In this document: piece after piece, positions 9,806 through 34,769 of the stretch | Numbering within the stretch: the first letter of the stretch is position 1 | Layout: the number at the start of each line of letters is the position of its first letter | Assembly: GCA_030603695.1 (NCBI GenBank) | Contig: JAUVXF010000013.1 | Location: 1-64,000 of the forward strand | From: Natronohydrobacter sp. | GTDB lineage: Bacteria; Pseudomonadota; Alphaproteobacteria; Rhodobacterales; Rhodobacteraceae | DNA: 64,000 nt | Direction: 5' to 3' | Translations under genes and position numbers: made by a program | The notes under the pieces: model-generated | What the model was told of the DNA's origin: nothing | The model's input: the letters and a program-made list of their open reading frames with translations, nothing else | The model's database searches: none

Positions 9806-9809
9806 GCGC

Positions 9810-10889: not shown

Positions 10890-10895
10890 GGGGCC

Positions 10896-11684: not shown

Positions 11685-11775
11685 GATATACTTGACTCTT
11701 TTGCTTGGGCAAAATAGCCCATGCGCCACACTGCCAGCGGTATCGCCAGCCTGAACCACAAAATAGGGGATACCG

Positions 11776-13931: not shown

Positions 13932-16900
13932 CTACCCATTCTGCGGGTTCTGGGCCAACATCCAGCGTATCACGGCGGCAAGGCTACGCTCTGCCGTGGC
14001 CATGTCTGCGGCTATTTCGGGCACGGGCAGCGGCGGCGGGGCGTAGCGCGCAAGCAGGGCTTCCGCCTCTTCAAGCGGGATCATGCTGTCGGGAACATCT
14101 TTCAAGAGCAGGGCATAGCCGCGCAAGCGTGGCAAAAGCCAGCCAGAGGGGTGATTGCGCTGCGCCTGCAACAGGGCCATCGCGCGCGAAAGCCAGTCAT
14201 GCGTGCCAATCAGGCGCGGTGACAGGCCGTTTGCTTCCATCGCGCGCGCAATGCTTTCCGCGGGGGCGGCACCATGGGTGAAAATATGCGCAATACCTTG
14301 CGGAACATCGGCCTGTGCAAGGCCAAGGATCATCTGTGTGGCATGATCGACCGAGGCCCAGGGCAGGGGAATGGCGCTTAGGCCGCTGGGGATGGCCCGC
14401 AAATCCAGAAACAGGCTTAGAAAGCCTTGGCCGATATCCTGAGCCGCGTAATACCCCGTCTGGGAATCGCCAATCACAAGGCCGGGGCGCAGGATGGTGG
14501 CGTGATAGCCTTTGTCGCGCGCCGTCAGGATCATCTGTTCTGCGGCCCATTTGGACAGGTTGTAGCCACTGCTGATCGCGGGTTCTGTCACACGCGCATC
14601 AAACCCGTCGCGCAGCCTGTCTAGCGGGGTCTGGAGCACGCCAAGCGTAGAGATATAGACCAGCGATTTCGGCTTATGCGCTGACATGATCTGCAAAAGC
14701 TGCAACGTGCTGAGCGTGTTGACACCGCGCATCATGGCATAGGGCTTGAAGGCGTGAACCCCCGCACCGTTATGCACGATCATATCCACCTCGCGTGCGA
14801 GGCTATCGCGTGCCTGCGCAGTTAGCCCCAGATCGGGCAAGGCCAGATCACCCATTTCCACATGAATGCGCGCTGCATAGCCCTGCGGCAGCCCTGCGCC
14901 ATCTATGCTGTGCAATTCCTGCACAATCCGGGCATGGGCGCTGGCGGCATCTTTGCCACGCGCAAGGCATATGATTTTTGCGCGCGTGTCCTGTAGCAAA
15001 TCGCGCAGCAGATAGCGCCCGATCAGCCCTGTGGCGCCTGTCAGCAAAATGGTTTGCGCGGCGCGCAACTGGGCTGCTTGGCCATTCGGGGCGGGGGGCA
15101 GTGTATCGGCCAGCGCAATATCGCTGCGCGCCTGTGCAACATCGGTTTCGGTTTGCGGCAGATCGCTATCTTGATTTTCGGCCATCGCGCTGGCGAGTGC
15201 GGCGATATCACCTGCCTCGAATATCAGGCGCAGCGGAATGGGAGTGCCGGTGTCTTGCTCCAAAGCCGCCGCAAGACGCACGGCCAAAAGCGAATTGCCC
15301 CCAAGCGTGAAGAAATTGTCATGCCGTCCGATTTGGGGCGCGGGCTGGGCGGTTTCCTCTTCCAGCAGGGTTGCTATATGATGGGCAATCATCGTTTCCA
15401 ACGCGCCTTCGGGCGGGAAGTGCTGGCCTTGCGCCAGATCGGGGCCAAGGGCGGGCAGGCGCTTTGGGTCCAGCTTGCCATTGGGGCCGCGCGGCAGCCC
15501 CTCCAGCCGGTGCAGGGCTGCGGGAACCATATAGCCCGGCAGCGCCGCACGCAGTGCGGCCATCAGCGCGCCAGCCTCTGCCGTGCCTGTGAAAAACCCC
15601 TCCAGACGCGGGGCCGCGCTGCCTGTCGCGCGCGCGACGACCATGGCCTCTTGCACACCCGGCTGGCCCATCATCACAGCGGCAATTTCTTCCGGTTCAA
15701 TCCGAAAGCCACGGATTTTTACCTGATTATCCATCCGGCCCAGAAATTCCAGCACCCCATCTGCCCGCCAGCGCACCTTGTCGCCTGTGCGGTAGAGTGT
15801 GCGGCCCGGCTCTAGCGGGTCTGCAACAAAGCGCGCGCCGGTCAGCTGCGGTAAATTCACATAGCCGCGCGCAAGGCCGGGGCCGCCCAAAGCCAATTCT
15901 CCGTCTATCCCGATGCCTACAGGCTGCAATTGCGCATCGCGCACGGTGGCCAGATAATTGGGCAAGGGCTGGCCAATCGGCAACACCGCCAAGTCGAAAT
16001 CCGCAGGCGTGACGCGGTGATAGCTGGCTTCGATACAGGTTTCTGTCGGGCCATAGACATTGAACAGCGCAACATCCGGCAAGGCCCGCGCGATGCGCTG
16101 CGCCACAGCGCCCGACAGCGCCTCTCCGCCCAGCATAAGCTGGCGCAGGGCCAGCCCATCGAGGGGCGGCGCGCTGAGCATGGCCGCAAAGACCGAGGGC
16201 ACCATGTTCAGATGCGTGACCTTGCGCTTGTGCAGCAAGTCCCAAAACTCTGCCGCGCCCATCTGCTTGAGATCGGGGGCCATGACCACTGTGGCCCCTG
16301 TCAGCAGTGGCAACAGCATTTCTTGCAGCGATACATCAAACCCGATGGAAACCCCCGCCAGAACATGATCGCCAAAGCCCGTCTTGCAATGCGCCCCCGC
16401 CCGCGCGGCGCAAAGATGGGCCAGCGCGCGGTGGGCCACGGCCACGCCCTTTGGCCTGCCAGATGTGCCAGAGGTATAGATGATATAGGCCAGCGCCTCT
16501 GGGTCTTGGAACACAGGCAGGGGGGTGGCGGGGCTGTCGGGCAGGCTGTCCAGCCTGTCAAGGATCAGAACCGCGCCTGCATCCTGTGCGGCATGGCCAA
16601 GACGCTCTGACGGGTAATCGGGATCAAGCGGCAGATAGACAGCCCCCGCGCGCGATATGGCCAAGAGCGCGATGCAGGTGGCGGCAGAACGCGCCATGCG
16701 CACGCCGACTACATCGCCTGCCCGCACCCCTGCGGCAATCAGGCTGCGCGCCAGCCTGAGGCTTTGGTCGTGGACAAAGCCGTAGCTGAGCGCCGTGCCA
16801 TCACAATCCACGATTGCAGTGGTATCTGGCGCGGCTGTGGCTTGGGCATCGAACAGATGCTCCAGGCGCGCGCAGCGCCAATCCAGCGCTGTCACCTCGA

Positions 16901-18239
16901 AGCGTGATATTTGTGCGGCCTCTGATGGGGCCAGCGCGGGAATGGTGGCAAAATCGGGCCGCGCGCCATTTGGGGCGCAATCTTGCACAAATGCCGAGAT
17001 TGCGCCTTCCAGCAATTCGGCCAGCATATGCGCGTCCAAAACCCCTGCATAGTCGGGATTTACCGCAATCCGGTAGTTCAGCGCCCCTGTTGCCGGATCA
17101 TCGGTGGCGTGAAAGCTGATGGGGCTGGCCTCTCGTGTATCAATAACAGCGCTGGTGATTTCGGGCGGAAAGCCAAGCGCTGTCGCACCGGGCATATAAG
17201 AAAGCGCAACATCAAAAAGCCCAACCCCGCCTTGCCCTGTCATGCCCAATGCGCGCGCAAGTGTATCTATGGAAATGCGGTTATGGCGCAGGTCTGCATC
17301 CCAAGCCTCGCTGAATGCGGCAAGACAGTCTTGCAGGCTCCACCATTCCTCAAAGCAGATGCGCAAGGGAATGACGCCTGTCATCATGCCCAGCGTGTGC
17401 AGTGTCTTTGCATCGCGCCGATGCAAGGCCAGACCGCAGACCAGATCATTTTGCCCAAAGCGGCGCGCAAGCGTTATCGCCAGCAGCCCAAACAACGCAC
17501 GCGGCGCAGACAGATTGGCGGCCTTGGCGGCTGTCAGAAATCCGCGCTCTGCCGGGATGTGGCCAAAGGCTGTATGCGCAAAGGGGTTTTGTGATGGTTT
17601 GGGAAGGGCGGGGATCAGTTTTTCCGGCAGATTGGCAAGGCGCGCTTTCCAATAGGCCAGATCACGCTGGAATTGAGGGGACGTGTTGTAATCCTGATCC
17701 GCCGCAATGATCGGCATAACAGAGCTTGGTTCAATATTTGGCAGGGGCAGCCCCTGTGACTGGGCAAAATAGGTTTGAAACCACTGTTGCAACACAAGCT
17801 GCATTGTCAGACTGTCGGCAATTATATGGTGAAAGCACAACACAAGGTAGCGCAATCCCCCGATGGTCAGCAGATGCACCCGAAACAGGGGGGCATCGCC
17901 AAAGGGAAGCGGCATGGAAAAGAGTTGCGCAAGATGCGCCTGAAACGCGGCATCTGGATCTTGTGCTGACAGCGTGACCTCGAACAGCGGCGGAGTGCAA
18001 TCAGACGATACCCATTGTCTGGGCGTGTTGGGGTCAATGCGCAGGCGCAACCCCTCATGGTTTTCCAGAAGCACCCGAAGCGAGGCGCGCAGGCACGCGC
18101 TGTCCAGATCAAGCCCGGTCTTGATCCAGCACCCCAGCCGATATCCGGCTGGGCCGGATATCTGGCTATCAAACCAAAGCGGTACCTGAGCATTTCCCAA
18201 AGCGAAATAATGCGTCATTATCTGATTGCTGCCGTCCAT
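13932..18239 (-). CDS. Nonribosomal peptide synthetase, C-A-T-reductase
   Basis: 1435 residues in one module. The condensation domain (about 1-430) has HHIIADS near residue 136, so the second His and Asp are present. The adenylation domain (about 440-930) has YTSGTSGRPKG near 591, NVYGPTET near 728, YRTGDKVRW and NGKLDPKRLP. The carrier domain has LGGNSLLAVRL near 982. The C-terminal thioester reductase domain (about 1065-1400) has LLTGATGLIGR near 1069 and a catalytic YNLSK near 1228. By family knowledge such modules join an acyl chain to one amino acid and release it by NAD(P)H reduction as an aldehyde or alcohol. A by-eye alignment to GrsA gives pocket residues D-V-Q-N-M-G-V-I-E-K, which I cannot match to a substrate; the Asp indicates a normal alpha-amino acid. 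It lies 58 bases after the PKS stop, so the PKS most likely supplies the acyl chain. Confidence 0.93.
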   Translation of the reverse strand: MDGSNQIMTHYFALGNAQVPLWFDSQISGPAGYRLGCWIKTGLDLDSACLRASLRVLLENHEGLRLRIDPNTPRQWVSSDCTPPLFEVTLSAQDPDAAFQAHLAQLFSMPLPFGDAPLFRVHLLTIGGLRYLVLCFHHIIADSLTMQLVLQQWFQTYFAQSQGLPLPNIEPSSVMPIIAADQDYNTSPQFQRDLAYWKARLANLPEKLIPALPKPSQNPFAHTAFGHIPAERGFLTAAKAANLSAPRALFGLLAITLARRFGQNDLVCGLALHRRDAKTLHTLGMMTGVIPLRICFEEWWSLQDCLAAFSEAWDADLRHNRISIDTLARALGMTGQGGVGLFDVALSYMPGATALGFPPEITSAVIDTREASPISFHATDDPATGALNYRIAVNPDYAGVLDAHMLAELLEGAISAFVQDCAPNGARPDFATIPALAPSEAAQISRFEVTALDWRCARLEHLFDAQATAAPDTTAIVDCDGTALSYGFVHDQSLRLARSLIAAGVRAGDVVGVRMARSAATCIALLAISRAGAVYLPLDPDYPSERLGHAAQDAGAVLILDRLDSLPDSPATPLPVFQDPEALAYIIYTSGTSGRPKGVAVAHRALAHLCAARAGAHCKTGFGDHVLAGVSIGFDVSLQEMLLPLLTGATVVMAPDLKQMGAAEFWDLLHKRKVTHLNMVPSVFAAMLSAPPLDGLALRQLMLGGEALSGAVAQRIARALPDVALFNVYGPTETCIEASYHRVTPADFDLAVLPIGQPLPNYLATVRDAQLQPVGIGIDGELALGGPGLARGYVNLPQLTGARFVADPLEPGRTLYRTGDKVRWRADGVLEFLGRMDNQVKIRGFRIEPEEIAAVMMGQPGVQEAMVVARATGSAAPRLEGFFTGTAEAGALMAALRAALPGYMVPAALHRLEGLPRGPNGKLDPKRLPALGPDLAQGQHFPPEGALETMIAHHIATLLEEETAQPAPQIGRHDNFFTLGGNSLLAVRLAAALEQDTGTPIPLRLIFEAGDIAALASAMAENQDSDLPQTETDVAQARSDIALADTLPPAPNGQAAQLRAAQTILLTGATGLIGRYLLRDLLQDTRAKIICLARGKDAASAHARIVQELHSIDGAGLPQGYAARIHVEMGDLALPDLGLTAQARDSLAREVDMIVHNGAGVHAFKPYAMMRGVNTLSTLQLLQIMSAHKPKSLVYISTLGVLQTPLDRLRDGFDARVTEPAISSGYNLSKWAAEQMILTARDKGYHATILRPGLVIGDSQTGYYAAQDIGQGFLSLFLDLRAIPSGLSAIPLPWASVDHATQMILGLAQADVPQGIAHIFTHGAAPAESIARAMEANGLSPRLIGTHDWLSRAMALLQAQRNHPSGWLLPRLRGYALLLKDVPDSMIPLEEAEALLARYAPPPLPVPEIAADMATAERSLAAVIRWMLAQNPQNG

Positions 18240-18297
18240 ATCCCAACCTCACCAAAAGGCTGCGCCCGACCGAAGCAGGGCGCAGGGCCTCTTGCGT

Positions 18298-21200
18298 TTA
18301 TGCGGCATCCTGCGCTTGTTTTGCGTCGGTTCCGGGGGCTTCTGGTGTGTCATCCAACCCTTCAACCCCCAATAGCTTGGCAACTTGATCCGCCACCGCC
18401 AAAAGCGAGGCCGCGCCCAAAAGCTGCATCACCGGGATAGACTGCCCCACATCACGTTCCAGAGCGTTGGCCAGTTCCACCGCCATCAGCGAATCCAGCC
18501 CCAGATCGCCAAGCGCCTGTTGCGGGTTTATCTGTGCGGCGGTTGTGCCCATCACCCGCGCGGCGGTTTCGATGATCCTGTCCAGAACAAAGCCGCGCTG
18601 TTCGGCCTTGGGCATATTGGCCATCAGATCGGCCAGGGTTTCATCGGCTTGCAACAGCGCGGTTGCATCGCTGGGCACGATGGGCAGAAACCGTGGAACG
18701 CGCGCGGCAGGCAACATCTGGTGCAGGCGCTGCAAATCAAACCGTGCCACACTGACGCGCGAGGCCCCGGCGGCAAGCACACGCCCCAGATCGGCCAAGG
18801 CGTCATGCGCGGGGGTTGCATCCAGGCCCGTGCGCGCTTTCAGCATGTCGCGCACATTCTCATGACGCGTCAGAAAGCCAACATCCTGAATAGCCCCCCA
18901 GCCGATTGCCAAAGCAGGCAAGCCCAATGCGCGGCGATACTGCGCCAAGGCATCCAGATAGAGATTGGCCGCCACATAGGCCCCCTGTCCGGGATTGCCC
19001 ACCACCGCCGAAGAAGAGGAGTAGAGAACAAACACTTCCAGCGCGTCTTGCAATGTGGCCTGATGCAGGTTCCACGCGCCCACCATCTTGGGCAGGTAAA
19101 CGCGGGCAATCTGATCTGGCTCTATTTTCTGGATAGGGGCATCTTCAATCACGGCGGCAGAGTGAATAATCCCGATCAGCGGGGGCATCTGGGTGCGGAT
19201 GGTTTCCAGCACCGCGTCCAGTTGCGCCGGATCGGCAATATCGGCGGCGAAGGCGCGTGCCTCTATCCCGGCGGCGGCGAATTCGGCCAGCGCGGCCTTG
19301 GCCTCGTCACGGGTGGCCCCGCTGCGAGAGACCAGCGCCAGCGCGGTGGCGCCTTGTTCAACCAGCCATTTCGCACTGGCCAGACCAAAACCGCCCAAGC
19401 CGCCTGTCACCAGATATGTGCCCCCGGCGCGGATGGGATTGCGGGCAGGAACGACATATAAATTTTCCGGCCTGTCCAGTTCCAGAGAGATCACCAGCTT
19501 GCCCAGATGGCGCGATTGCTGCATGGCGCGAAACGCTTCTTGCGCGCGCGAAATTGGGATCACCTGATGGGGCAACGGCGTAAGCGTGCCATCTGCAAAT
19601 TGCGCAATCACCTGTGCAAACAGGCGCTGGGCAAGGGCGGGCCGCTCTATCAGCAAGGTATCGGCATCTATCCCGAAATAGGACAGGTTGTTGCGGAACG
19701 GGCGTAGCCCAATGCGGCTATTGTCATAGAAATCCCGCTTTCCAATCTCAAGAAAGCGCCCGAATGGCTTGAGAATATTCAGGTTTTTCAGAATTGCTTC
19801 GCCTGCGAGGGAGTTGAGGATCACATCCACCCCCGCGCCCTTGGTAATCTCCATCACCCTGTCGGCATAATCCAGCGAGCGCGAGTTGAGCACATGATCC
19901 ACCCCCAGCATTTCCAGCATGCGCCGCTTGGTGGCTGATCCGGCAGTGCCAATTACGACAGCGCCCTTTTGCTTGGCAATCTGGATTGCCGCAAGGCCAA
20001 CACCGCCCGCCGCGCCGTGAATAAGGATTGTCTCGCCCGGTTCCAGCCGCGCCAGATAATCCAGCCCATACCATGCTGTCAGAAAGACGGTTGGCACAGT
20101 GGCGGCCTGTGGGAATGTCATGCCATCTGGCATCTTGACCACAGATTTCGCCGCTGTCGTGACATGCGAACCAAAACAGGATGAGGCGAAGGCCAGCACC
20201 CTGTCACCTGCTTGCAACCCTGTCACGCCTGAACCAACGCGCAGCACAACGCCCGCGCATTCCATCCCGATGGTTGCGCCGGAAAAGCCGTGTTCCACGG
20301 CCTCTTCGGGCAGCATTCCCATGCACCACAGCACATCGCGGAAATTCAGGCCCGCAGCTTTGACGGCGATTTCGACCTCGTTCTCGCCTGGGGCCTTGCG
20401 CGTGGTTGCGCGCAGATACAGCGATTGCAGCCCCGATTGCGGCACGAAATCCAGCGCGAAAGAGGGGGCTTTTTGCTGCGCATGGCGCGCTTCATCGGCA
20501 ATGGTTGTAATCCGCTCGCGGTTTACATAGCGGTGCCCATCTGCAAGCTGCACTTCGGTTTCCATGTCCTTGCGCGCCAGTTCCGCTGCCAGCACGGCGC
20601 TGTCATCGGGATCGCACAGATCAATCAGGCGAAGATCAAGCCCGCCATGCTCGTTCCCGATCACCCGGCCAAGGCCCCAAAGCGCGGCCTCTGACGGGTC
20701 TGCCGGGCCAGTGCCATTGGCGCGGGCAAAGGCCCCGCGCGTGACAATGCCAAGGGCGCAATCGCGGTCTTGGCGCACCAGTTCCAGCGCTCCCACCAGC
20801 GCCACTGCGGCAAGTGTGCGTCTGGCCTGCCTGTTGTGCAGCTCTGCACTGGGCTGCGCATCGCCCAACAAAATAACGCGCGTGGCTTCGGTGCTGTCCA
20901 GCACAGCGCGCAGGGTGTCGCGCGCCGTTTCGGTATCTTGATCCGGGAAGGGGATGACAGTGGCATCATGGCCAAGCGCGCCCAGATCCCGCGCCAGATT
21001 TTCCGCAAATCCTATGGGGTTTTCGGCAAGAATAACGAATGTGTTACGCTGTGCGACTGTATCTGTTTGGACAAGCGCGCCAAGGCGTATCTGTCGGCGG
21101 GTTGCGATAAACAGTCCTGCGCCAGCATGCGAGAGATGGCTTACATCCTCAAACCCGGCGCTTTGCAGGGTTTGGGCTGCGATCTCGGAGGGTTTGCCCA

Positions 21201-24200
21201 GCATAAGCCGCGCGGCTGCGCTGGTGTCGGGGGCGGGCGCAATCAGTTTCGCGCCATCTGCCATCACCTCTTGCAGATGCTCCAGCACCCCTGCCAGATG
21301 TTCAGGCCATGTGCCAAGCCCGGTTGCGATGACAAGATCGAAATAGCCCAAGGGCAAGCCCTGTTCTCCAAGCGGCTGGGCCGGGTTTGCGCGGGCGGTG
21401 CGAAGAAATTTATGCGCGGCCAGGCGGCGTTCGGCGCGCGCGACCAAGCCCTCGGCGGGATCGGTAAACAGGTAATCCGCGCGCTCGGCAGGGATAAGCG
21501 GCAATAGCCAGGATGCAAGCCCGCCTGTGCCACCTGCAATTTCCAGAATCCGCATTGGCCTGTTTTCGGGCCAGCCCTTGAGCACAGCATCCACAGTTGC
21601 AATCGCAAGCTGATTAAGCGGGGCGGCAAAAGGCGCGGTGTCTTGCACTTGCTCCAGCACTGCGGCGGCTGGCTCTGCCACCTCTTTGCCGCGCAGGCGT
21701 GCGGGCAGGCTTTCGCCCTGTTCTGCCAGAAGCAGCAATTCTGCCTGATACCCGGGGTTGCGGCGGAAGGTTTCTTGCCACAGGGCTGCGGGATCGGGCC
21801 GCGCGTCTTGCGCCCAAACCCATGCCGCGCCGTCTTGGCGGATTTGGCCCGCAGCGGCGGCAATATCTATGACATGCTGCAACAGCGCCCCTTCGCTGCG
21901 CCCCAAACGGGCCGCGCGGGCAAGGCCGGGCAGGGTGAAACTGCCCTCGGCCGGGCAAAGCGGGGCAAGGGCGCGGGCGGCATAAAGCCCGGCGATCTGA
22001 TCCAGCGTGGCGCGCAGGGCATCATCCGGGGCGGGTGCAAGCTGAATTTCGGGTTGTGGCAGGGCGGGCAGGCCATGGGCGCGCACCACCTGCGTATCTG
22101 GCCGCCACCATTCAGAGGTGAGGGGCGAGAGCGCCTCACCTGTCAGATTGGCCTTTTGGCAGCGCCCCCCTTCCAGATAAAGAACCACTGCGCCATCGGG
22201 GCCAAGAAGCGTGAAATTCGCCACCACAGAGCGCGCGGATTCGCGGGTGATCTGCACATGGCAATACAGTTCTGCCGGTAACTGGGCATAGCTGCGCACG
22301 CGCTCAAATGCGACAGGGATGGTGCTGATATTGCGGCCATCCAATTGCCAGACCAGCGGAATGATGGCCTGAAGGCAACTGTCAAACAAGGCGGGGTGGG
22401 CACGATATGCGCCCAGTTTCGCGGTAGCGGGAAACTCCAGCCGGATTTTGGCAAAAGCCTCGCGCCTGGGGGCATCGGGGCTGGAGAGGTGCACATCCTG
22501 CAAGCCCTGAAAGAATGGCCCATAGTGCAACCCGCGCGCAGATGCGGCGGCGTAATGCGCGCCTGCATCCAGATGAATGGGAAGTTGCGCGCGCAGTGCT
22601 GCTAGATCAAGCATCGGGGCGGCCTGATCTTCTATTGCGCTAAGCCTTGCGCGCACATGCACCTGATATTCCCGCGCATCACGATCTCGGCGCGAACTGA
22701 TGGTCACGGTTGTATCGCGCGCATCAATCACGGTTTGCACAATCGGGTCATTCTGCTCGCCCAGCACCAGCGGGCGCAGGATCTGCAAATTCTCGACCTC
22801 TAGGATCGTGTCTGCGCCCCAGTTCTGCACCCCGCCTGCCAGCAGCAATTCCAGATAGCCCGCAGCCGGAAACAAAACCGAACCTTGCACCACATGATCT
22901 GCCAGATAGCCAAGCGTATTCTTGTCAATTGGCATTTCCCAGCTGGGATTGACCGCAGGCAGGCGGACGCCCAAAAGCGGGTGGTCGCGCTTGGTGGGCA
23001 TGAAACTGTCAGGCAGGCCAGCTGCGCCCCGCCAATGGCGTTCGCGCTGCCATGGGTATTTCGGCAAGGCGGGCAGAGTGGCGGGGCGCTGATACAGGGT
23101 TTCCAGCGCCGCCGCCCCATTTGCCAGCGCTGCCGCAATCGCGGTTGCACAGTTCTCGGCATCGGATTCGGGCCTGTCCTTGCCGGGGCGGCGCAGCGTT
23201 TCCAGAACTGTGGCGCTGGCCCCTGTGGCGCGGGCGGTTTGCGCCACATAGTCTTTCAAGACAGGGTGCGGGCCGATTTCAATGAACAGGCCGATCCCGT
23301 GCTCTGCCAGCAGATGCGACACAGCGCCATGAAAATTGACGGGCTGGCGCACATTGTCAAACCAATACCCGGCATCCAGCTTTTGCCCCTCCAAGAGCTT
23401 GCCAGTTACCGTAGAGATGAAGGGCAGGGCGCTGGCCTTGGGGGCAAGCCCCGCCAGCGCGGCCAGAAGCGCGGAGCGGATTGGATCCATGGCGCTGGTA
23501 TGGAACGGGTAATCCAGTTGCAACATACGCGCAAATTTGCCCGCAGCGCTGACATGATCGGCCAGTTTTTGCAGCAAAACGGCATCGCCTGCCACAGTTA
23601 CTGCCGCAGGCCCGTTGATGGCCGCGATTTCCAGCCAGCCGCCAATCTGGGCAATGGCCTTTTGCGCCTCGTCCCTATCCAGCCCCAAAGCCAGCATTTT
23701 GCCAGTTCCGGCTGTGCGCGCCTGTTCTTGCGAGCGGTGGAAGATCACAAGCGTGGCCTGTTCCAATGTCAGCGCGCCACTTGCGCAAGCGGCGGCAACT
23801 TCGCCGACAGAATGGCCAAATACGGCGGCGGGCATGATCCCGGCCTTGCTGAAAACAGCCGTGAGGCCCATTTGCAGGGCAAAGAGCATGGGTTGCGCCA
23901 CTTCGGTGGCTGCAATGCGGGATTGGTCTTCGGGCTTGGCCATTTCATCCAGCAATGACCAACCTGCAAGCGGCGCAAAAATGGCATCCACTTCGGCAAT
24001 CGTGGCCCGAAAGATCGGATCAGAGGCCAAAAGCGCGCGCCCCATTCCCCACCATTGCGGGCCATTGCCGGAATAGACAAAGGCCGTTGGCACATGCGCG
24101 CCCTCGCGCGCCCCGCTTGCGGTGCCGGGCTGTGGCGTGCCGTCAGCCCAGTGCTCCAGCTTCTCGGCGGCCTGTGAGGCGGTGGTGGCGGCGATGGCCA

Positions 24201-25695
24201 GACGCAGGCGCAACAGCGAACGGCAGCGCGCGGCGGCATGCGCGATGGTGGCATAATCTGCGCCCGGTTCGCGCAGAAGGGCCGCATATTTGCGCGCCAA
24301 GTCCCGCAAGGCCCCTTCGCTATTGGCAGACAAGATCAGATGCGCAGGTGCGGCAAGGGTATTTTCACGCGCGGGCGTGCGGTATTCCTCGATAATGGCA
24401 TGGGCATTTGTGCCCCCAAAGCCGAAGGAATTTACCCCGATTATCACATCATGTTCGGGCAGCGGCAGGGGTTTATCCACAACGCGCAATTTCCAGCCCT
24501 CGAAATCTATCTTGGGATTGGGGGTGTTGAAATGCAGCTGCGCGGGGATTTCACGGTGTTTGAGCGCCAGAATGACCTTGGTCATGCCTGCAATCCCAGA
24601 GGCCGGTTCCAGATGGCCGATATTGGATTTCACCGATCCAATATGACACATGCTGCCATCTGCGCGGGGTGCGCCCAGAACCTTGCCCAAAGCGCCGCAT
24701 TCAATCGGGTCGCCCACGGTTGTGCCGGTGCCATGGGCCTCTACATAGAAAACCTGCTCTGCCGCAATGCCTGCCGCACCGTAAAGCTGTGCCAAAAGTT
24801 CTGCCTGCGCATCGCCATTTGGCATGGCCAGCCCCAATGTGCGGCCATCAGAGTTGATCCCGGTCGCCCGGATCACGCATAAAATGGGGTCGCCATCGCG
24901 CTCGGCATCTTCCAGCCGTTTCAGATAGACCAGACCACCCCCTTCAGAGCGCACATAGCCATTGCCGTTGGCATCAAAGCTTTTGCACCGGCCATCGGGC
25001 GACAGCATAGAGGCGCGCGAAAACCCAAGCCAGGGCCGGATATCGGCCAGCACACTGACGCCGCCGGCAAGTGCGCCATCACATTCGCCCCGCCCGATGG
25101 CCTGACAGGCCTGATGAATACAGACAAGGCTGGACGAACACGCCGTATCAATCGCCAGGCTTGGCCCATGCAGATCGAACACATAAGACAGCCGATTGGC
25201 CGCAATGCTGAAGGAAACACCTGTGTTTGAATAGGCATCGGGCCAGCCTGCGCCTGCCATCTGCGCGTAATCATTGCTGGAAATACCGACATAGACGCCG
25301 ATATTCTGCCCCGCCACACTGCGCGGCGGCAGGCCCGCATCCTCGAATGCTTCCCATGCCAGTTCCAGAAGCAGGCGTTGCTGCGGGTCGATCTGCTTTG
25401 CCTCACGCGGAGAGATGCCGAAGAAATCGGCATCAAACCCGTCAATCCGCTCCAACAGGCCGCAGGATTTGGTATAAACCCGGCCAGGGCGGTCGGGGTT
25501 GGGATTGTGCCAGCCCAGATCCCAGCGATCCCCTTGCACCTCGCCCACAGCATCGCGGCCTGATTTCAGAAAGTCCCATAGCTCTTCTGGCGAATTCGCG
25601 CCCCCCGGAAATCTGCCGCTAAAGCCCACCACTGCAATCGGGCAGAGCGGCTGGGCAGGCTGTGGCGCGGGGTGGTGTGGGGAATGATGTTTCAT
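18298..25695 (-). CDS. Highly reducing type I polyketide synthase, KS-AT-DH-MT-ER-KR-ACP
   Basis: 2465 residues. Domains in order with landmarks: KS with DTACSSSL (about residue 185), VEAHGTGT and KSNIGHLE. AT with GHSVGE (about 629) and the selectivity stretch DYPFHTSAMDP, nearer malonyl-type than methylmalonyl-type. DH with HVVQGSVLFP (about 935) and later DSCLQ. A methyltransferase-like domain with LEIAGGTGG (about 1386), but the usual LHA histidine motif is not seen (GLGTW there). ER with GAAGGVGLAAIQIA (about 1898). KR with TGGLGGFG (about 2098) and a catalytic Tyr in GAYVAANLY (about 2245). ACP with LGLDSLMAVEL (about 2400). One full set of reducing domains suggests iterative synthesis of a saturated or partly saturated chain. 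The start at 25695 follows AGGAGA; the longer frame from 25824 would overlap the RND gene. There is no thioesterase, consistent with hand-off to the NRPS. Confidence 0.93.
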   Translation of the reverse strand: MKHHSPHHPAPQPAQPLCPIAVVGFSGRFPGGANSPEELWDFLKSGRDAVGEVQGDRWDLGWHNPNPDRPGRVYTKSCGLLERIDGFDADFFGISPREAKQIDPQQRLLLELAWEAFEDAGLPPRSVAGQNIGVYVGISSNDYAQMAGAGWPDAYSNTGVSFSIAANRLSYVFDLHGPSLAIDTACSSSLVCIHQACQAIGRGECDGALAGGVSVLADIRPWLGFSRASMLSPDGRCKSFDANGNGYVRSEGGGLVYLKRLEDAERDGDPILCVIRATGINSDGRTLGLAMPNGDAQAELLAQLYGAAGIAAEQVFYVEAHGTGTTVGDPIECGALGKVLGAPRADGSMCHIGSVKSNIGHLEPASGIAGMTKVILALKHREIPAQLHFNTPNPKIDFEGWKLRVVDKPLPLPEHDVIIGVNSFGFGGTNAHAIIEEYRTPARENTLAAPAHLILSANSEGALRDLARKYAALLREPGADYATIAHAAARCRSLLRLRLAIAATTASQAAEKLEHWADGTPQPGTASGAREGAHVPTAFVYSGNGPQWWGMGRALLASDPIFRATIAEVDAIFAPLAGWSLLDEMAKPEDQSRIAATEVAQPMLFALQMGLTAVFSKAGIMPAAVFGHSVGEVAAACASGALTLEQATLVIFHRSQEQARTAGTGKMLALGLDRDEAQKAIAQIGGWLEIAAINGPAAVTVAGDAVLLQKLADHVSAAGKFARMLQLDYPFHTSAMDPIRSALLAALAGLAPKASALPFISTVTGKLLEGQKLDAGYWFDNVRQPVNFHGAVSHLLAEHGIGLFIEIGPHPVLKDYVAQTARATGASATVLETLRRPGKDRPESDAENCATAIAAALANGAAALETLYQRPATLPALPKYPWQRERHWRGAAGLPDSFMPTKRDHPLLGVRLPAVNPSWEMPIDKNTLGYLADHVVQGSVLFPAAGYLELLLAGGVQNWGADTILEVENLQILRPLVLGEQNDPIVQTVIDARDTTVTISSRRDRDAREYQVHVRARLSAIEDQAAPMLDLAALRAQLPIHLDAGAHYAAASARGLHYGPFFQGLQDVHLSSPDAPRREAFAKIRLEFPATAKLGAYRAHPALFDSCLQAIIPLVWQLDGRNISTIPVAFERVRSYAQLPAELYCHVQITRESARSVVANFTLLGPDGAVVLYLEGGRCQKANLTGEALSPLTSEWWRPDTQVVRAHGLPALPQPEIQLAPAPDDALRATLDQIAGLYAARALAPLCPAEGSFTLPGLARAARLGRSEGALLQHVIDIAAAAGQIRQDGAAWVWAQDARPDPAALWQETFRRNPGYQAELLLLAEQGESLPARLRGKEVAEPAAAVLEQVQDTAPFAAPLNQLAIATVDAVLKGWPENRPMRILEIAGGTGGLASWLLPLIPAERADYLFTDPAEGLVARAERRLAAHKFLRTARANPAQPLGEQGLPLGYFDLVIATGLGTWPEHLAGVLEHLQEVMADGAKLIAPAPDTSAAARLMLGKPSEIAAQTLQSAGFEDVSHLSHAGAGLFIATRRQIRLGALVQTDTVAQRNTFVILAENPIGFAENLARDLGALGHDATVIPFPDQDTETARDTLRAVLDSTEATRVILLGDAQPSAELHNRQARRTLAAVALVGALELVRQDRDCALGIVTRGAFARANGTGPADPSEAALWGLGRVIGNEHGGLDLRLIDLCDPDDSAVLAAELARKDMETEVQLADGHRYVNRERITTIADEARHAQQKAPSFALDFVPQSGLQSLYLRATTRKAPGENEVEIAVKAAGLNFRDVLWCMGMLPEEAVEHGFSGATIGMECAGVVLRVGSGVTGLQAGDRVLAFASSCFGSHVTTAAKSVVKMPDGMTFPQAATVPTVFLTAWYGLDYLARLEPGETILIHGAAGGVGLAAIQIAKQKGAVVIGTAGSATKRRMLEMLGVDHVLNSRSLDYADRVMEITKGAGVDVILNSLAGEAILKNLNILKPFGRFLEIGKRDFYDNSRIGLRPFRNNLSYFGIDADTLLIERPALAQRLFAQVIAQFADGTLTPLPHQVIPISRAQEAFRAMQQSRHLGKLVISLELDRPENLYVVPARNPIRAGGTYLVTGGLGGFGLASAKWLVEQGATALALVSRSGATRDEAKAALAEFAAAGIEARAFAADIADPAQLDAVLETIRTQMPPLIGIIHSAAVIEDAPIQKIEPDQIARVYLPKMVGAWNLHQATLQDALEVFVLYSSSSAVVGNPGQGAYVAANLYLDALAQYRRALGLPALAIGWGAIQDVGFLTRHENVRDMLKARTGLDATPAHDALADLGRVLAAGASRVSVARFDLQRLHQMLPAARVPRFLPIVPSDATALLQADETLADLMANMPKAEQRGFVLDRIIETAARVMGTTAAQINPQQALGDLGLDSLMAVELANALERDVGQSIPVMQLLGAASLLAVADQVAKLLGVEGLDDTPEAPGTDAKQAQDAA

Positions 25696-25807
25696 TGAAA
25701 TCTCCTGCATCCGGCAATCGTGGGCTGAAATCTTTGACGGGCGATGAAAAAGGGAAACGAAATTATCTGTTTTGGGTTTTCGGGTCTGCGGCGAAGGGGC
25801 GGTGCTG

Positions 25808-28800
25808 TCATGGGTCTGGGGCACGAAAGGCTTGCTTCAGCCTGTCTTCCAGATCTGGCTGAACAGCTGCGCGGCGCTGTGGCGCCTGTCTTTGGCGCGC
25901 AACGCTGGTTGGGGTCAGGCCCAGCAAGGGCGGGGCATTGCGATTGGGCGCTGTCTCGGCCGGACTGGGCAGGCGCAGAACCAGCCCGGAGCGGCAATAG
26001 GCCAGGCGGAAATAGGCTGGCGCAAACAGAAAGGCGAGGGTGCCTGACAACAGCACCCCACCCGCCACCGCGGCCGCGAATGGGGGCCAAAACAGCCCGC
26101 CCGAAAACAAGAGCGGCAAAAACCCCCCAAAGGTTGTCAGCGTGGTGGAGAAAATATGCCGCGCCCCCGCCATCACTTCTGCAAGGATTGCATCCAGATC
26201 GCCAGCGGCGGCGCGCAGATTGCCTTGCAGTGCAGTGAAAATGATGATCGTGGCGTTCACCGATACCCCGATAGACCCGATCACCCCGATCAAGGCGTTG
26301 ATCCCAAGGGGAAAGCCCATCAGCGCCACCGAAAGCAGCGACAGCCCGGCAGACAGGCCCGCCACGATCACTGTGCCCAGTGTCAGCCGGAATGATCTGA
26401 ACGTCAGCACCAGCGCACCAAGGCTAAGCGCCACAATCAGCGCGAGCGAGGCAAGAAGCCCGTTCACCGTGGCGTCACGCTCATCGCTCTCACCGCCAAT
26501 TTCCAGCCGATACCCTTCAGGGAGTGTAATATTTGCATCTGCAATTGAGGCCAAAGCGGTGCGCAGCAACTCTTCGGGCAGGATATCGGGTTGCGGATAG
26601 GCTTGGACAAAGTTCATCCGCTCGCCGCGCATGCGCAGGATCAGGGCTTGTGTGATGTCCAGTCGCGGCACAGCCAGCGCCGAAAGCGGGAGTGTTGCAA
26701 GATCCGTTGCGGCGCTGCGGGGCAGGGCCGTGAGGATGGGGAGATCATTGATTGCGTCTGAATTGCCCAGAACAGAGGCCGCGAATTGTACCCGGATCGG
26801 GATTTGGCGTGTGCCATCTGTCAGCGCGCCCGCCTCCATGCCCGAAAGCCCGGCCTGCAACTGGCCCGCAATCGCGCCTTCTGTCAGGCCAAGCAGGTTT
26901 AATGTGGCGCTGTCCATCTGGTAGCGCAACTGGGGTGTGCCGCCTGTCAGGCCCGCGCGCACTTGCGCGGTCTGTGGCAAAGCGGCAATGGCGGTTTCCA
27001 CTGCGGCACCGATGCGGCGCAAGTCTTCCAGTTCTGGCCCAAAGATGCGCAGCTCTACAGGCGCGCCCACGGGTGGGCCTTGCACCAAGGCTTGCACGAT
27101 CACCCGCGCTTCGGGGAAGCGGGTGGTCAAATCCTGTTGCAGACTGGCCAGAATGGCCCGTGTTGCGGCGGGGGTTTGTGTTGTGATCATGCCTTGGGCA
27201 AAGGCGGGTTCATTGCGGCGCGGGCTGGCAATATTGTAATAAAAGGCAGGCGCGGCCCCGCCCGATACCCAATAGCTGCTCTCTACCCCCTCCAGCTCAT
27301 GCAAATAGGTGTCAATCCGGCGCACCAGATCATCGGTGCGGCGCAAAGTGGCATGGGCGGGCAGTTCCAGCGTGATGTGAAATTGGTTGCGTTCCACCAG
27401 TGGGAAGAATTGCGGGGTCAGAAATATGACAGAGGCAAAGCCCATCAGCGGCAATGCCAGCGCCGCGCACATGCTGATGCGGGGATTGGCAATAAAATAC
27501 TGCAACCCTGCCGCGAAGCGCGCTTGTTGGGCCTGCGCGATAGGGGCGGGTTGGGAAAAGGCAGGCAAAAGATGGGCTGCAAGCGGGGCAGTCAGGATCA
27601 GCGCCAGCAGGAATGACCAGAACAGCATGACAGAAACGGCGATTGCGATGGTGCTGACAAAATCACCTGTATTGCCCGGCAGCAGGATCATGGGCAGGAA
27701 TGTCAGGATCGTTGTGACCGTAGAAGCCGCGAGGGGCAGAAACAAACGCCGCGCCGCTTCGGTTGCGGCCTGCACGCGCCCTTCGCCTCCGTTCAGGCGG
27801 CGGCGCACTGTATCGGTGGTGACAATGGCGCTATCCACCACCAGCCCAAGTGCCACGATTAGCCCCGCAATGGACATCTGCTGCAAGGGCATATCCAGAA
27901 AGCGAAACGTGACCAGCGTGGCAAGGCTGACAACAGGCAGGATAAGCCCCACAATCGCCGCCGCCTGCCAGCCCAGCGTCACCGCCAGCACCGCTGCCAC
28001 GATCGCCATGCCAAACACCATGTTGCGCCCGACCTCTGCCAAGCGTTCCAATGTGTAGCCGCTTTGGTCAAACAGCACCGATACCCCAAGGCCACGCGGC
28101 AGGGTTTGGCGCATGGCGGTTATCTCTTTATGAACCAGCGCCATCCAGCGGTCTGCCTGCGCGCCGTCTTCCACCACTGCGGCAATCAAGATGGCCGGAT
28201 TGCCATTCGCGCGCGCCAGTGCGGCAGCCGGGCTGCGCACATGATGTGCAATCTCTGCCACATCCCCAAGGCGCAGCACGGCATCTGTGCCACTGCCGCG
28301 CAGGGGGATGGCGCGCAGATCATCCGCTTGGCCCAGCCTGCCAGAAAGTTCGAGAGTGCTGTCCAGCCCTTCGCTTTGATAGCGCCCGGCAAGGGCGGTA
28401 TCATTCACCCGCCGTATGGCAGTTGCGATTTCTGCCACTGACAGCCCATCGCCACTGGTGGCAAAAGGATCGACACTGACCAGTATCTCTTCTTCCGGCA
28501 GGCCAAACAAACGCACAACCCGCGTTTGCGCAATGGCGCGAATGCGGGTTTCCAGCGCCTCGGCAAAGCGGGTCGCAATGATGGGAGAGAGCGCAGGATC
28601 AAGGATTTCCACGGCGATGACAGTGCTATAGGCCGCCACGCCGTCTGTATCAATCTGCGGCGCCAGCGCGCCGTCTGGAAATGTTGCGCGCGCCCGTGCC
28701 ACGGCTTCGCGCAACTCGATCCAGACCTGCTCTATCAGATCGTCTGGCACAGTATCATGCACCGAAAGCGTGACCACAGACACCCCCCGAAGCGAGGCGC

Positions 28801-29041
28801 TGGAATAGAAATCGATGCTGGAAATGGCTTTGATCTGATCTTCAATCGGTGTGGAAACAAGCGCTTCTATCACGCCCGGTTCTGCGCCCGGCATAAGCGT
28901 TGTGATGCTGGCAAAACGATTGGTGAAACTGGGGTCTTCCTGCCGGCCCAATGTCCAGAGCGCCGACAAGCCGCCCACCACAAGGATGGCAATAAACATG
29001 GCCAGCACACGGGTTTCGCGGAAAAAATACCCCGACAGCAT
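25808..29041 (-). CDS. RND efflux transporter permease
   Basis: 1077-residue inner-membrane pump of the AcrB/HAE superfamily. It has the first helix, a large periplasmic loop (about 30-330), six helices, a second periplasmic loop and six final helices. The helix 4 proton-relay motif reads GLVVDSAIV, with one Asp where AcrB-type pumps have two. It starts four bases from the membrane-fusion gene stop and ends 113 bases before the PKS start. The position inside the PKS-NRPS operon argues for export of, or self-protection from, the product. The last about 60 residues are Pro/Arg-rich and look unconserved. Confidence 0.92.
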   Translation of the reverse strand: MLSGYFFRETRVLAMFIAILVVGGLSALWTLGRQEDPSFTNRFASITTLMPGAEPGVIEALVSTPIEDQIKAISSIDFYSSASLRGVSVVTLSVHDTVPDDLIEQVWIELREAVARARATFPDGALAPQIDTDGVAAYSTVIAVEILDPALSPIIATRFAEALETRIRAIAQTRVVRLFGLPEEEILVSVDPFATSGDGLSVAEIATAIRRVNDTALAGRYQSEGLDSTLELSGRLGQADDLRAIPLRGSGTDAVLRLGDVAEIAHHVRSPAAALARANGNPAILIAAVVEDGAQADRWMALVHKEITAMRQTLPRGLGVSVLFDQSGYTLERLAEVGRNMVFGMAIVAAVLAVTLGWQAAAIVGLILPVVSLATLVTFRFLDMPLQQMSIAGLIVALGLVVDSAIVTTDTVRRRLNGGEGRVQAATEAARRLFLPLAASTVTTILTFLPMILLPGNTGDFVSTIAIAVSVMLFWSFLLALILTAPLAAHLLPAFSQPAPIAQAQQARFAAGLQYFIANPRISMCAALALPLMGFASVIFLTPQFFPLVERNQFHITLELPAHATLRRTDDLVRRIDTYLHELEGVESSYWVSGGAAPAFYYNIASPRRNEPAFAQGMITTQTPAATRAILASLQQDLTTRFPEARVIVQALVQGPPVGAPVELRIFGPELEDLRRIGAAVETAIAALPQTAQVRAGLTGGTPQLRYQMDSATLNLLGLTEGAIAGQLQAGLSGMEAGALTDGTRQIPIRVQFAASVLGNSDAINDLPILTALPRSAATDLATLPLSALAVPRLDITQALILRMRGERMNFVQAYPQPDILPEELLRTALASIADANITLPEGYRLEIGGESDERDATVNGLLASLALIVALSLGALVLTFRSFRLTLGTVIVAGLSAGLSLLSVALMGFPLGINALIGVIGSIGVSVNATIIIFTALQGNLRAAAGDLDAILAEVMAGARHIFSTTLTTFGGFLPLLFSGGLFWPPFAAAVAGGVLLSGTLAFLFAPAYFRLAYCRSGLVLRLPSPAETAPNRNAPPLLGLTPTSVARQRQAPQRRAAVQPDLEDRLKQAFRAPDP

Positions 29042-29044
29042 GCG

Positions 29045-30148
29045 CTATTCCGCCCGCACTGTCTGGCCCGGCACGATTTTATGCGCGCCGATGCTGATAA
29101 TCTGCGTTCCATCCTCAAAGAGGCCGCTGACATAGGCCATATCGCCGCGCAAATGGCGGACTTCTATGGCGATTGGTTCTGCAACCTGTGTTTCTGTTAC
29201 GCCAAGCAGTGTCCAATAGCCTTGCGAACCGGGGCGCATGGCATCGACCGGCACCCATGCCCCGCGCTGGCGCAGGGGAAGTTCGGCCAGCAGGCTTGCG
29301 GTCTGGCCAAAGCCTGTGATCTCTTCTGCCTCGACCGTAAACAGGGCAATGCGGGTATTGCTGCGCAGATCAATATCAGGGCGCAGCGCATGAAGCGTGA
29401 GGGCATATATCCGCCCATTCACATCAAGGCGGGGGTTTTGCAGGGCTGCGGGATCAAGTGACATGGGCAGGCCCGCCCGAAAATTTGCGCGCCCGCGCTC
29501 GAATATCGAAATCACGGGCTGGCCTGCGGCCACGGCCTCGCCCAATGTGGCGCGGGTTGCGCCGACAACGGCATCAAACGGGGCGGTAAGATCTGTATCG
29601 CGCAAACGCAGATCAAGGCGGGCCAAGGCCCCTTCCGCTTCTGCGATTGCAGCACCAAGCGCGTAGCTTTCGGCGCGCGCGCGATCCAGACTGTTCGCAG
29701 GCGCGGCCCCGCGCGCTACCAGACGTTCCAGCCGGGTGATTTCCGCCAGTGCAAGGGCGAGACGGTTCTGCACAGTTTGCAGGTTGGCGGCAACGGCCTG
29801 CCGCTCCAGTGCAAGCGCATCACGCGACACCCGCGCCAGCACATCGCCCTTGCGCACACTATCGCCTTCGCGCACCGTGATTTGCGCAATGATTCCGCCA
29901 AATTCAAAGCCCAGCTCGGCGGTCTGGCTGGCCTCCAGCCGGCCCAGAAACTGCCTGTTGACAAGTATCTGATCTTCAACCCTCAGCGACATCAGCCCCA
30001 CAGGCACCGCTTGGCCGGAGACCGAGGCCAAGCCTTGCCCCGCCTTGCCGCCCCAGACACCGCCCAGCAACAGCGCCACGCTTGCGAGTGCCGCGGCGCC
30101 AAGGGCCACTGTTGCGCGACTTATCCGAGGGGGAAAGGGCCAATTCAC
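29045..30148 (-). CDS. RND efflux membrane-fusion (periplasmic adaptor) protein
   Basis: 367 residues of the AcrA/HlyD class. An N-terminal membrane anchor (about 12-33) is followed by a first lipoyl half containing TAELGFEFGGIIAQITVREGD. An alpha-helical hairpin (about 110-175) is next, then a second lipoyl half with LTAPFDAVVGATRATLGEAV. It bridges the RND pump and the outer-membrane factor. Four bases separate it from the pump gene, so the two are co-translated. A 163-base gap separates it from the outer-membrane factor gene. Confidence 0.91.
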   Translation of the reverse strand: MNWPFPPRISRATVALGAAALASVALLLGGVWGGKAGQGLASVSGQAVPVGLMSLRVEDQILVNRQFLGRLEASQTAELGFEFGGIIAQITVREGDSVRKGDVLARVSRDALALERQAVAANLQTVQNRLALALAEITRLERLVARGAAPANSLDRARAESYALGAAIAEAEGALARLDLRLRDTDLTAPFDAVVGATRATLGEAVAAGQPVISIFERGRANFRAGLPMSLDPAALQNPRLDVNGRIYALTLHALRPDIDLRSNTRIALFTVEAEEITGFGQTASLLAELPLRQRGAWVPVDAMRPGSQGYWTLLGVTETQVAEPIAIEVRHLRGDMAYVSGLFEDGTQIISIGAHKIVPGQTVRAE

Positions 30149-30311
30149 GTCACTTCGCTTTCACATGATCCAAACAAACCAATTGCGCCGTCATATCGGG
30201 CATCAGGAAACAAACACGCCCTAAATGCGCCTGCGTTTACATTTGCAAAACGATTGGTTCAGGATTGCGCTAAGATCATGGTGAAAATGTGTTTTTGTGC
30301 CCGCATTGTCG
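30149..30311 (-). other. Gap between outer-membrane factor and adaptor genes
   Basis: 163 bases, AT-richer than the flanking genes, with no open reading frame worth calling. It could hold a second promoter for the adaptor-RND-PKS-NRPS part of the operon. I saw no clear promoter hexamers, operator or terminator. Confidence 0.3.
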
Positions 30312-31781: not shown

Positions 31782-31822
31782 AATTGCCTGTCTGCTTGCC
31801 AGATATTCCTGATCTTGCACCA

Positions 31823-31852
31823 GATATACCAACTAAAGAGATAAATGTCTCT
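31823..31852 (-). promoter_or_regulatory. Candidate promoter with overlapping inverted repeat ahead of the efflux/PKS operon
   Basis: On the minus strand GAGACA (31846-31851), a 17-base spacer and TATATC (31823-31828) form a promoter-like pair upstream of the outer-membrane factor gene. An inverted repeat AGAGA-TAAATG-TCTCT (31837-31852) covers the -35 and spacer, a usual place for a repressor. No regulator gene is adjacent, so the controlling protein is unknown. Confidence 0.4.
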
Positions 31853-31895
31853 CTAAAAGATGGGGTGCCGGTGGATTGCGCGCGTGGCGGTTTTC

Positions 31896-32618
31896 TTATT
31901 CAGGCCGATTAACCAGCCAAGTCAGCACATGATCGGCGCGGATGTCATAGCAAACCTGCACGCGAAATCCCTGTGGCACATCAGGGTGCAAGGCTTCTGT
32001 GATTTGAAATTGCAGGCTGTCTTGCGATACCGCGCCCAGTAATTCGGCGGCGCTGAAACCGAAAAACCGGCCCACACGCGGGTAAAGCGCCTTGAAAATG
32101 CTTTCTTTGGCGGAAAACAGCAGGGTTGCGGCTATTTCTGGCGGATATCCCATGTCAGCCCGCGCAAGCGCGGCCTCGCGCGCAGACAGGCATTTGGCGA
32201 CAATCGCCGCGAGGGCGGTTCCGGTGGCAATGCGTTCCAGATCGATCCCGCATAAGTGGTTGGGAACACAGGTTACCAGACTGGCCGCGCGCCCGTGGCT
32301 ATGGGTAATTGCGCCTGCAAGCCCTTGTGGCCAGATGGGCGCGCGATCCGTGCCCGCGCGAATGTCATGGGCCGGCAGATGAAGGGCTTGCAGCGCAAGT
32401 GCCGCGCTGATCCGCCCAGCCAGAAAATCCGCCTGCCGTTTGGCTGCCATGCCGGGCAGCGCTGGTGGCGGTTCTATGCCGTAGGCGGCAAACAGCGCCG
32501 GATCATAGCGCAGCGGATCGAAGGCCATCTCGACCAGTGCAACCCCCGCGCCAAGCCCGTCTCGCACTGTGGCCTTGGTCACAAAGCTATCGGGCGAAAT
32601 CTGGGCAGCCGGGATCAT
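31896..32618 (-). CDS. 4'-phosphopantetheinyl transferase, EntD/Sfp type
   Basis: About 240 residues. Family residues are present: FLAGRISAALAL, ITHSHG, the Mg-binding GIDLERI and FSAKESIFKAL with the WxxKES-type Glu and Lys. It transfers phosphopantetheine from CoA to carrier domains and should activate the PKS ACP and the NRPS carrier domain. The start at 32618 gives a normal length; longer frames run back into soxZ. It lies 55 bases after soxZ on the same strand, so it may be read from the sulfur operon as well as serving the biosynthetic cluster. Confidence 0.88.
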   Translation of the reverse strand: MIPAAQISPDSFVTKATVRDGLGAGVALVEMAFDPLRYDPALFAAYGIEPPPALPGMAAKRQADFLAGRISAALALQALHLPAHDIRAGTDRAPIWPQGLAGAITHSHGRAASLVTCVPNHLCGIDLERIATGTALAAIVAKCLSAREAALARADMGYPPEIAATLLFSAKESIFKALYPRVGRFFGFSAAELLGAVSQDSLQFQITEALHPDVPQGFRVQVCYDIRADHVLTWLVNRPE

Positions 32619-32673: not shown

Positions 32674-32979
32674 TCAGGACACAGAAACACTGCCTTCGGC
32701 GCGAAACTCTGTTCCATCCTCATGCGTCCAGATGAATTCAAAATCACCAGGCGCAGCGGCGCGCAGGTAGAAGGTGAAGGTCGGATTGGCGGCGCTGCCA
32801 TTGCCAAAATCATAGCTGAGCACCGTTTGCCCATTCATGCGCGCGTCAAACCGCGCCAGCATATCGCGCGGGTTATCCGAGGACAGGCCCGTCACCATCG
32901 GGTGATCTATCAGGGTGCGGATTTCGATTTCCTCGCCTGCACTGGCAGAGCGGGGCAGGCGAACTCTGGGTGTGGACAT
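32674..32979 (-). CDS. soxZ: Thiosulfate oxidation carrier complex subunit SoxZ
   Basis: 101 residues, the usual SoxZ size, with the immunoglobulin-like core (PRVRLPRSASAGEEIEIRTL, then HPMVTGL). SoxZ pairs with SoxY in the periplasm and is exported with it, so its lack of a signal peptide is normal. The start at 32979 has an AGGAG site eight bases ahead, which overlaps the soxY stop region. The gap to soxY is ten bases. Confidence 0.93.
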   Translation of the reverse strand: MSTPRVRLPRSASAGEEIEIRTLIDHPMVTGLSSDNPRDMLARFDARMNGQTVLSYDFGNGSAANPTFTFYLRAAAPGDFEFIWTHEDGTEFRAEGSVSVS

Positions 32980-32989
32980 GGTTTTCTCC

Positions 32990-33442: not shown

Positions 33443-33464
33443 CAAGCGTCCTTTCGTATTTGCC

Positions 33465-34757: not shown

Positions 34758-34769
34758 GGGCTTGGCTCC

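Follow-up and report, generated by a model that had tools for sequence, protein, structure and literature searches.

The stretch of DNA analysed here (64 kb, the window) contains six neighbouring genes, all on the minus strand and all open frames with zero internal stops. Their order is Sfp-type PPTase, outer membrane factor, adaptor, RND permease, PKS and NRPS. They are listed below together with the methyltransferase region of the PKS.

31896..32618, minus strand: Sfp-type 4'-phosphopantetheinyl transferase (PPTase), 240 aa; Pfam 4PPT_N 70.7 bits, ACPS 44.6 bits
30312..31781, minus strand: NodT/TolC-type outer membrane factor (OMF), 489 aa; TIGR01845 202 bits, cut-off 210
29045..30148, minus strand: RND periplasmic adaptor (MFP), 367 aa, GTG start; TIGR01730 158 bits, cut-off 95
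25808..29041, minus strand: RND permease, 1077 aa; best model RND_permease_2, 286 bits, curated cut-off 1250
18298..25695, minus strand: single-module reducing PKS, KS-AT-DH-(degenerate cMT)-ER-KR-ACP, 2465 aa; Pfam, motifs
20925..22125, minus strand: C-methyltransferase region within the PKS, probably inactive; CurJ alignment, His absent
13932..18239, minus strand: one-module NRPS, C-A-T-R, with a thioester reductase domain, 1435 aa; Pfam, TIGR01746

The open frames, together with Pfam and NCBIfam, bear out the six genes and their place as given in the original prediction. The recomputed intergenic gaps, from PPTase to NRPS, are 114, 163, 3, 112 and 58 bases, and the last value is the PKS-NRPS distance claimed there. 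The revised PPTase start (ATG 32618) coincides exactly with the end coordinate of that prediction; the revised OMF start is ATG 31781. The longest PKS frame opens at 25824, inside the pump gene, and the ATG at 25695, preceded by AGGAG, is the likelier start. A promoter scan returned 4 sites (5.5 expected) and a terminator scan 24 (20.7 expected). The genome of the window consists of 40 contigs and is 99.97% complete.

Permease, adaptor and OMF are encoded together, as in tripartite RND pumps. In NCBIfam the adaptor is over its curated cut-off, and the permease (286 of 1250 bits) and the OMF (202 of 210 bits) are below theirs. A simple hydropathy count of the permease gave 9 merged segments, which do not represent a topology.

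Directly upstream of the PPTase and on the same strand (32674-36426, minus), there are SoxY-like, SoxZ-like (recognised by eye), sulfide:quinone reductase-like and YedE-like genes, all below curated cut-offs. The PPTase starts about 55 bases past the SoxZ-like stop and might be read together with this group. Elsewhere in the window (~53198-54662), a UxaA-type hydrolase stretch has ~80% DNA identity to Paracoccus plasmids. On the other side of the cluster, plus-strand genes point towards the NRPS (7928-13863); they encode HemS/ChuX, a binding protein, a FecCD permease, an ABC ATPase and a TonB haemin receptor whose score is over its cut-off. A distance of 68 bases separates these haem-uptake genes from the NRPS stop, a closeness that would suit a metallophore product tied to them. 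They are, however, convergent, on the opposite strand and of haem type; a TBDR probe matched no such genes alongside the related cluster of the sister genome G011, and no chelating-group enzymes were found in the cluster itself. We regard a metallophore as very improbable.

Domain composition of the PKS and the NRPS

The Pfam domains of the PKS are ketoacyl synthase, acyltransferase, dehydratase, methyltransferase, enoyl reductase (ADH/zinc), KR and PP-binding, and inspection showed the motifs of KS, AT, DH, ER, KR and ACP to be all intact. The NRPS contains Condensation, AMP-binding, PP-binding and NAD_binding_4 domains. Judged by motifs, both modules are active-site-complete, and they are encoded side by side. 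One reducing PKS and one NRPS module with a terminal reductase had been predicted, and the Pfam domains and the R motifs described below agree with this. The only PKS-type dehydratase match and the only Condensation match in the whole genome lie in the cluster PKS and NRPS, respectively. No second reducing PKS or NRPS able to feed or follow the cluster was found by the whole-genome domain search, which fits a single module that is either iterative or primed by fatty acids.

The nearest solved relative of the PKS is a bacterial PKS of the mycocerosic acid synthase type (MAS, PDB 9d2y, 1061 bits), an iterative PKS. MAS extends fatty acyl starters, and Pfam and NCBIfam revealed neither a loading domain nor an acyl ligase in the cluster; both points would suit a PKS that accepts an acyl chain already made by fatty-acid synthesis, lengthens it in one or a few rounds and passes it to the NRPS. 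Many single-module reducing PKSs, on the other hand, start from acetyl-CoA. We hold priming by a ready-made acyl chain to be less likely than full chain building by repeated use of the module. The AT motif is YPFH, which we take to be nearer to the malonyl-type HAFH than to the methylmalonyl-type YASH.

The cMT domain aligns with CurJ (E 1.9e-14), and T stands in the window at the position of the His in the CurJ motif ANVLHAT, presumably the catalytic His of the His-Glu dyad. This His is absent in all 11 PKSs compared (that of the window and 10 from the 16 related loci described below), and the SAM motif is uneven among them, Trp or Lys replacing a glycine in three. The predicted methyltransferase domain is recognisable, but working methylation is not borne out, the presumed catalytic His being absent and the SAM motif altered. 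The KS, AT, DH, ER, KR and ACP set of a single highly reducing module is present, and the functional C-methyltransferase that is optional in the iterative class appears to be missing. Use of a His-Glu dyad by such domains is described in one source (PMC9821293), and another reports a fungal PKS with a C-MeT that is inactive through SAM-motif changes (PMC6158276). The methyltransferase domain is probably degenerate and inactive, so that an unbranched chain would be expected.

In the NRPS, the motif HHIIADS is present, as are TGATGLIG and YNLSK in the R domain. The thioester reductase model TIGR01746 scores 217 bits (cut-off 213), and the NAD(P)H-binding and Tyr-Lys motifs are kept, as in NRPSs with reductive release. 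The R domain also aligns with 8v1x and with MxaA (131 bits); given these alignments and the motifs, reduction would be expected rather than cyclising release. In the register assumed here, the code of the A domain reads DVQNMGVIE, which was absent from the papers searched. Four of its nine positions match a glutamine code. The match to the ornithine code DVGEIGSIDK (PMC3992020) is likewise four of nine; the commonest code among the relatives, DVGNMGMID, shares six of nine with it. With low confidence, the amino acid may be polar or basic, either ornithine/lysine-like or glutamine.

Related clusters in the genus and beyond

Four of the 36 genus genomes contain the PKS at an identity of at least 56%, namely that of the window itself, G010 (72%), G002 (57%) and G011 (56%). 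All six parts are present in one same-genus genome, G011, while G010 and G002 have subsets of them. The G011 proteins are ~40-57% identical to those of the window (adaptor 46%, RND permease 57%, OMF 55%; the OMF of G002 is 49% identical). The G011 genes form two divergent groups, OMF and PPTase on one strand and MFP, RND, PKS and the NRPS start on the other; five genes lie on one contig, the NRPS starts at its end, and a piece with the R domain opens another contig. A 574-aa frame with a condensation match (40 bits; L013:2894-4618) opens the MFP-RND-PKS-NRPS group. In G002, the PKS and the NRPS start share a contig, and T-R, an alpha/beta-hydrolase, an MFS protein, PPTase and OMF are encoded on another. 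The window NRPS has no neighbouring hydrolase or MFS gene, the next gene being the convergent haemin receptor. In G010, PPTase and PKS are adjacent, no NRPS was found in the 5.3 kb left after the PKS on the contig, and a separate contig carries an R domain close to an MFS gene. Judging from this arrangement, the PKS need not always feed an adjoining NRPS.

The pump trio and the PPTase lie upstream on the same strand, as predicted, and in G011, too, the pump adjoins the PKS. An ordinary multidrug pump could have come to lie beside the PKS-NRPS pair by chance: in the stretch of G010 examined, PPTase and PKS are present without pump homologues, and the wider PKS family is accompanied by MATE, MFS or other pumps. 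Against chance stands G011, in which the MFP-RND-PKS-NRPS order is kept with 46-57% identity for pump and PKS, and OMF and PPTase are found divergent beside them. We consider fortuitous adjacency improbable. The five genes on one contig and the preserved order in G011 point to an association beyond chance; this is a genuine conserved cluster, and its RND pump would export the product.

It should be mentioned that many genus members contain another PKS (~2.1-2.2 thousand aa) and NRPS (~1.5 thousand aa) pair, located in G020 C1, G017 C109, G033 C76, G010 C39 and G011 C61. A PPTase-like gene lies near the NRPS of this pair in several of them. The whole-genome domain search did not find the pair in the genome of the window.

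Beyond the genus, a search of the species-genome collection by AT-domain alignment yielded 85 stretches representing 27 loci. AT identity was at least 49% in 16 loci, three of them from the sister MAGs G010, G002 and G011. Eleven of the 16 have a condensation domain after the PKS within the stretch examined. Of the remaining five, three are cut off within the PKS by the end of their contig, and neither G010 nor a Xanthobacteraceae MAG shows such a domain. In the 13 loci from outside the genus, KS is 59-71% identical, and ER 64-73% identical in the 11 whose stretch covers it. The relatives belong to Methylobacterium, Rhizobium, Aureimonas, Bosea, Sphingomonas and other phyla, and mostly contain a PKS followed by an NRPS. 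Eight loci were mapped in more detail. In five of them the NRPS frame comprises two modules; in one Sphingomonas it is shorter (C-A-T-C), in Eremiobacterota it extends past the contig end, and in Edaphobacter the condensation protein is encoded separately. A thioesterase closes the one NRPS scanned, that of Methylobacterium, and all three relatives scanned encode a MATE-like protein between PKS and NRPS. Among the frames kept in the eight mapped loci there was no R-domain match; an R domain occurs near more distant PKSs of Acuticoccus (L087) and of a Deinococcus plasmid.

In the trees, the C domain of the window falls among first-module C domains (100/100), and its A domain pairs with the Methylobacterium second-module A domain (99/99), with the A domains of G002 and G011 excluded. 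These positions look as if two NRPS modules had shrunk to one, a history that we infer. On such comparisons, the window cluster is a one-module, reductively released variant of a scattered PKS family. Among the hits listed in the literature searches, which cover few subscription journals, there was no paper on the cluster, and the searches showed no described product of this family.

Other searches returned more distant matches. An NRPS-only search of genome contigs gave 10 stretches, none confirmed as a relative. All 3743 plasmid records matched by the PKS are less than 60% identical, and the annotation of five matching plasmids showed no PKS-NRPS-RND set. Three of the five, from Paraburkholderia, Caballeronia and Pseudomonas (L062, L063 and L065), encode distant full-length reducing PKSs that are 39-42% identical; genes for LTA-synthase, capsule and aminotransferase surround them, suggesting lipid-decorated surface polymers. 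The Deinococcus plasmid has genes for a PPTase, a condensation protein and a thioester reductase near its PKS, and the fifth plasmid has an MMPL transporter. With the NRPS as query, the best 15 of 2298 plasmid records are 30-33% identical. In a family sample with 197 other genomes, nine of these contain a PKS match at E <=1e-180 (36-42% identical); probes for NRPS C, NRPS R, RND, OMF and PPTase found no match around these nine PKSs, three of which lie on contigs shorter than 18 kb.

The cluster PPTase and the usual acpS site

The cluster PPTase (~240 aa) has 4PPT_N and ACPS domains over their cut-offs, as in Sfp-type enzymes. In the alignment its motifs GIDLE and FSAKESIFK are intact; we take GIDLE and KESIFK to be the metal and Lys-Glu catalytic motifs. 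It was the only match in a PF01648 search of its genome. It is not the sole PPTase-like gene, since a protein search of the same genome revealed a second one on contig C7 (L126:1086-1883). The 4PPT N-terminal domain of this paralogue scores 53 bits and PF01648 only 13 bits (cut-off 25); GLKIS replaces GIDLE and KLASYK replaces KESIFK. The same degenerate gene is present in G006, a genome in which acpS is kept. With the Npt model, the C7 paralogue scores as high as the cluster PPTase (59.1 and 58.2 bits), and it may for this reason retain some activity.

AcpS was found in 33 of the 36 genus genomes, among which that of the window is counted. The other two genomes lacking it are 79% and 88% complete; among genomes at least 90% complete, 23 of 24 contain acpS, and the exception is the genome of the window. 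In G028, acpS (TIGR00516) directly follows a pdxJ-like gene, itself located after DUF2062-like and RelA/SpoT-like genes (the three names are read from the sequences). In G009 and G010, acpS adjoins DUF2062-like and RelA-like genes, and an antisense frame was picked over the place of pdxJ. An antisense frame was picked over acpS as well in G010, and its place there was taken from the AcpS search of the 36 genomes. In the genome of the window, the RelA-like, DUF2062-like and pdxJ-like (79% identity) genes are in place on the 134-kb contig C8, and no AcpS match was found 3' of the pdxJ-like gene (best E 0.08), the next frame being on the opposite strand. The usual acpS site is thus empty, and it is unbroken inside this contig.

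With acpS not found and nothing in its usual place, the cluster PPTase is probably the sole intact PPTase of the organism; in the 40-contig genome, no other was found that keeps all motifs. The original prediction had assigned the cluster its own carrier-activating enzyme. The PPTase does adjoin the cluster; its dedication to the cluster alone is doubtful for the same reasons. The apparent acpS loss and the possible role capture formed no part of that prediction. The cluster PPTase may also serve fatty-acid synthesis; a single broad-range PPTase is described for Pseudomonas aeruginosa, and one is proposed for Legionella (PMC5126622). In G010, G011 and G002, both acpS and a cluster-type PPTase are present, and the loss therefore seems recent and particular to the lineage of the window.

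Alternatively, the PPTase could act in the cluster only, the fatty-acid ACP being activated by the C7 paralogue or by an acpS missed by the assembly or the model. Dedicated in-cluster Sfp-type PPTases are known (PMC9813960), 40 contigs leave gaps, and the paralogue keeps its 4PPT N-terminal domain and an Npt score level with that of the cluster enzyme. Its catalytic motifs are nevertheless changed and its PF01648 score is far below the cut-off, also in the acpS-keeping G006. AcpS is present in 23 of 24 near-complete genus genomes but was not found here, and its usual site is unbroken inside the 134-kb contig. We judge this alternative possible, though short of even chances. Our own combined proposal, put forward no less tentatively, is that the cluster PPTase replaced acpS and activates the fatty-acid carrier, and that the cluster products are N-acyl amino aldehydes with an unbranched chain, or cyclised derivatives of these. 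If true, one gene of an otherwise dispensable cluster would be essential, which would help to lock the cluster into the genome.

Proposed pathway and comparison with known systems

Based on the domains and motifs, we propose a compact biosynthesis-and-export cluster, a scheme that as a whole has roughly even chances of being right. The Sfp-type PPTase would activate the PKS and NRPS carrier domains and, acpS being missing, probably the fatty-acid carrier protein too. Both iteration and chain length we infer: the single PKS module would be used repeatedly with malonyl units, giving a chain that is fully reduced and, the cMT being degenerate, unmethylated. The condensation domain of the NRPS belongs to the kind found after the PKS in related clusters; it would join this acyl chain to one polar or basic amino acid. 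The R domain would release an aldehyde, or an alcohol after a second reduction, so that the predicted product is an N-acyl amino aldehyde or alcohol. If the amino acid is ornithine, the aldehyde would close a ring with the side-chain amine. The three RND pump proteins would then export the product.

This would be a six-gene bacterial assembly line with export, small enough to be expressed whole, in which bacteria arrive at the domain order of fungal PKS-NRPS hybrids. The acpS loss beside an intact cluster PPTase would offer a testable case of a secondary-metabolism gene assuming an essential function, and would bear on how such clusters become fixed.

Among the systems compared, the loci of Methylobacterium nonmethylotrophicum, Aureimonas Leaf427, Rhizobium SL86, Bosea Leaf344 and Sphingomonas have the same PKS domain order, and their first C domain belongs to the same clade as that of the window. 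They differ in having mostly a two-module NRPS (5 of 8 mapped loci), a MATE gene between PKS and NRPS (3 of 3 scanned), a thioesterase end in the one scanned and no R match in the mapped loci; to our knowledge, none has a known product. MAS (PDB 9d2y), like the window PKS, is a single fully reducing module. It is described as using methylmalonyl units, and the window PKS differs from it in the degenerate cMT insert and the NRPS that follows. The fungal psoA (PDB 9x29) has the same domain order, with a single PKS and a single NRPS module and an R-type end. In the window, however, there are two separate genes and not one fused polypeptide, and the window PKS scores 591 bits with psoA and 578 with LovB, less than with MAS (1061). 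With two genes and the higher MAS score, fungal descent was set low, and the likeness to fungal PKS-NRPSs looks convergent. The R domain is similar to that of MxaA (myxalamid), and its Y...K motif is kept in the window; MxaA is part of a many-module line.

Frontalamide-type polycyclic tetramate macrolactam clusters (PMC3992020) are also bacterial and combine one PKS with one NRPS module bearing an ornithine-type A domain. Their type is KS-AT-DH-KR-ACP with a thioesterase, in contrast to the full reduction and R release predicted for the window. Finally, the genome of the window, with no AcpS found and one intact Sfp-type PPTase, resembles those of Pseudomonas aeruginosa and Legionella (PMC5126622). 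Unlike in those organisms, the PPTase of the window lies inside a PKS-NRPS cluster, in a genus in which 23 of 24 near-complete genomes keep AcpS.
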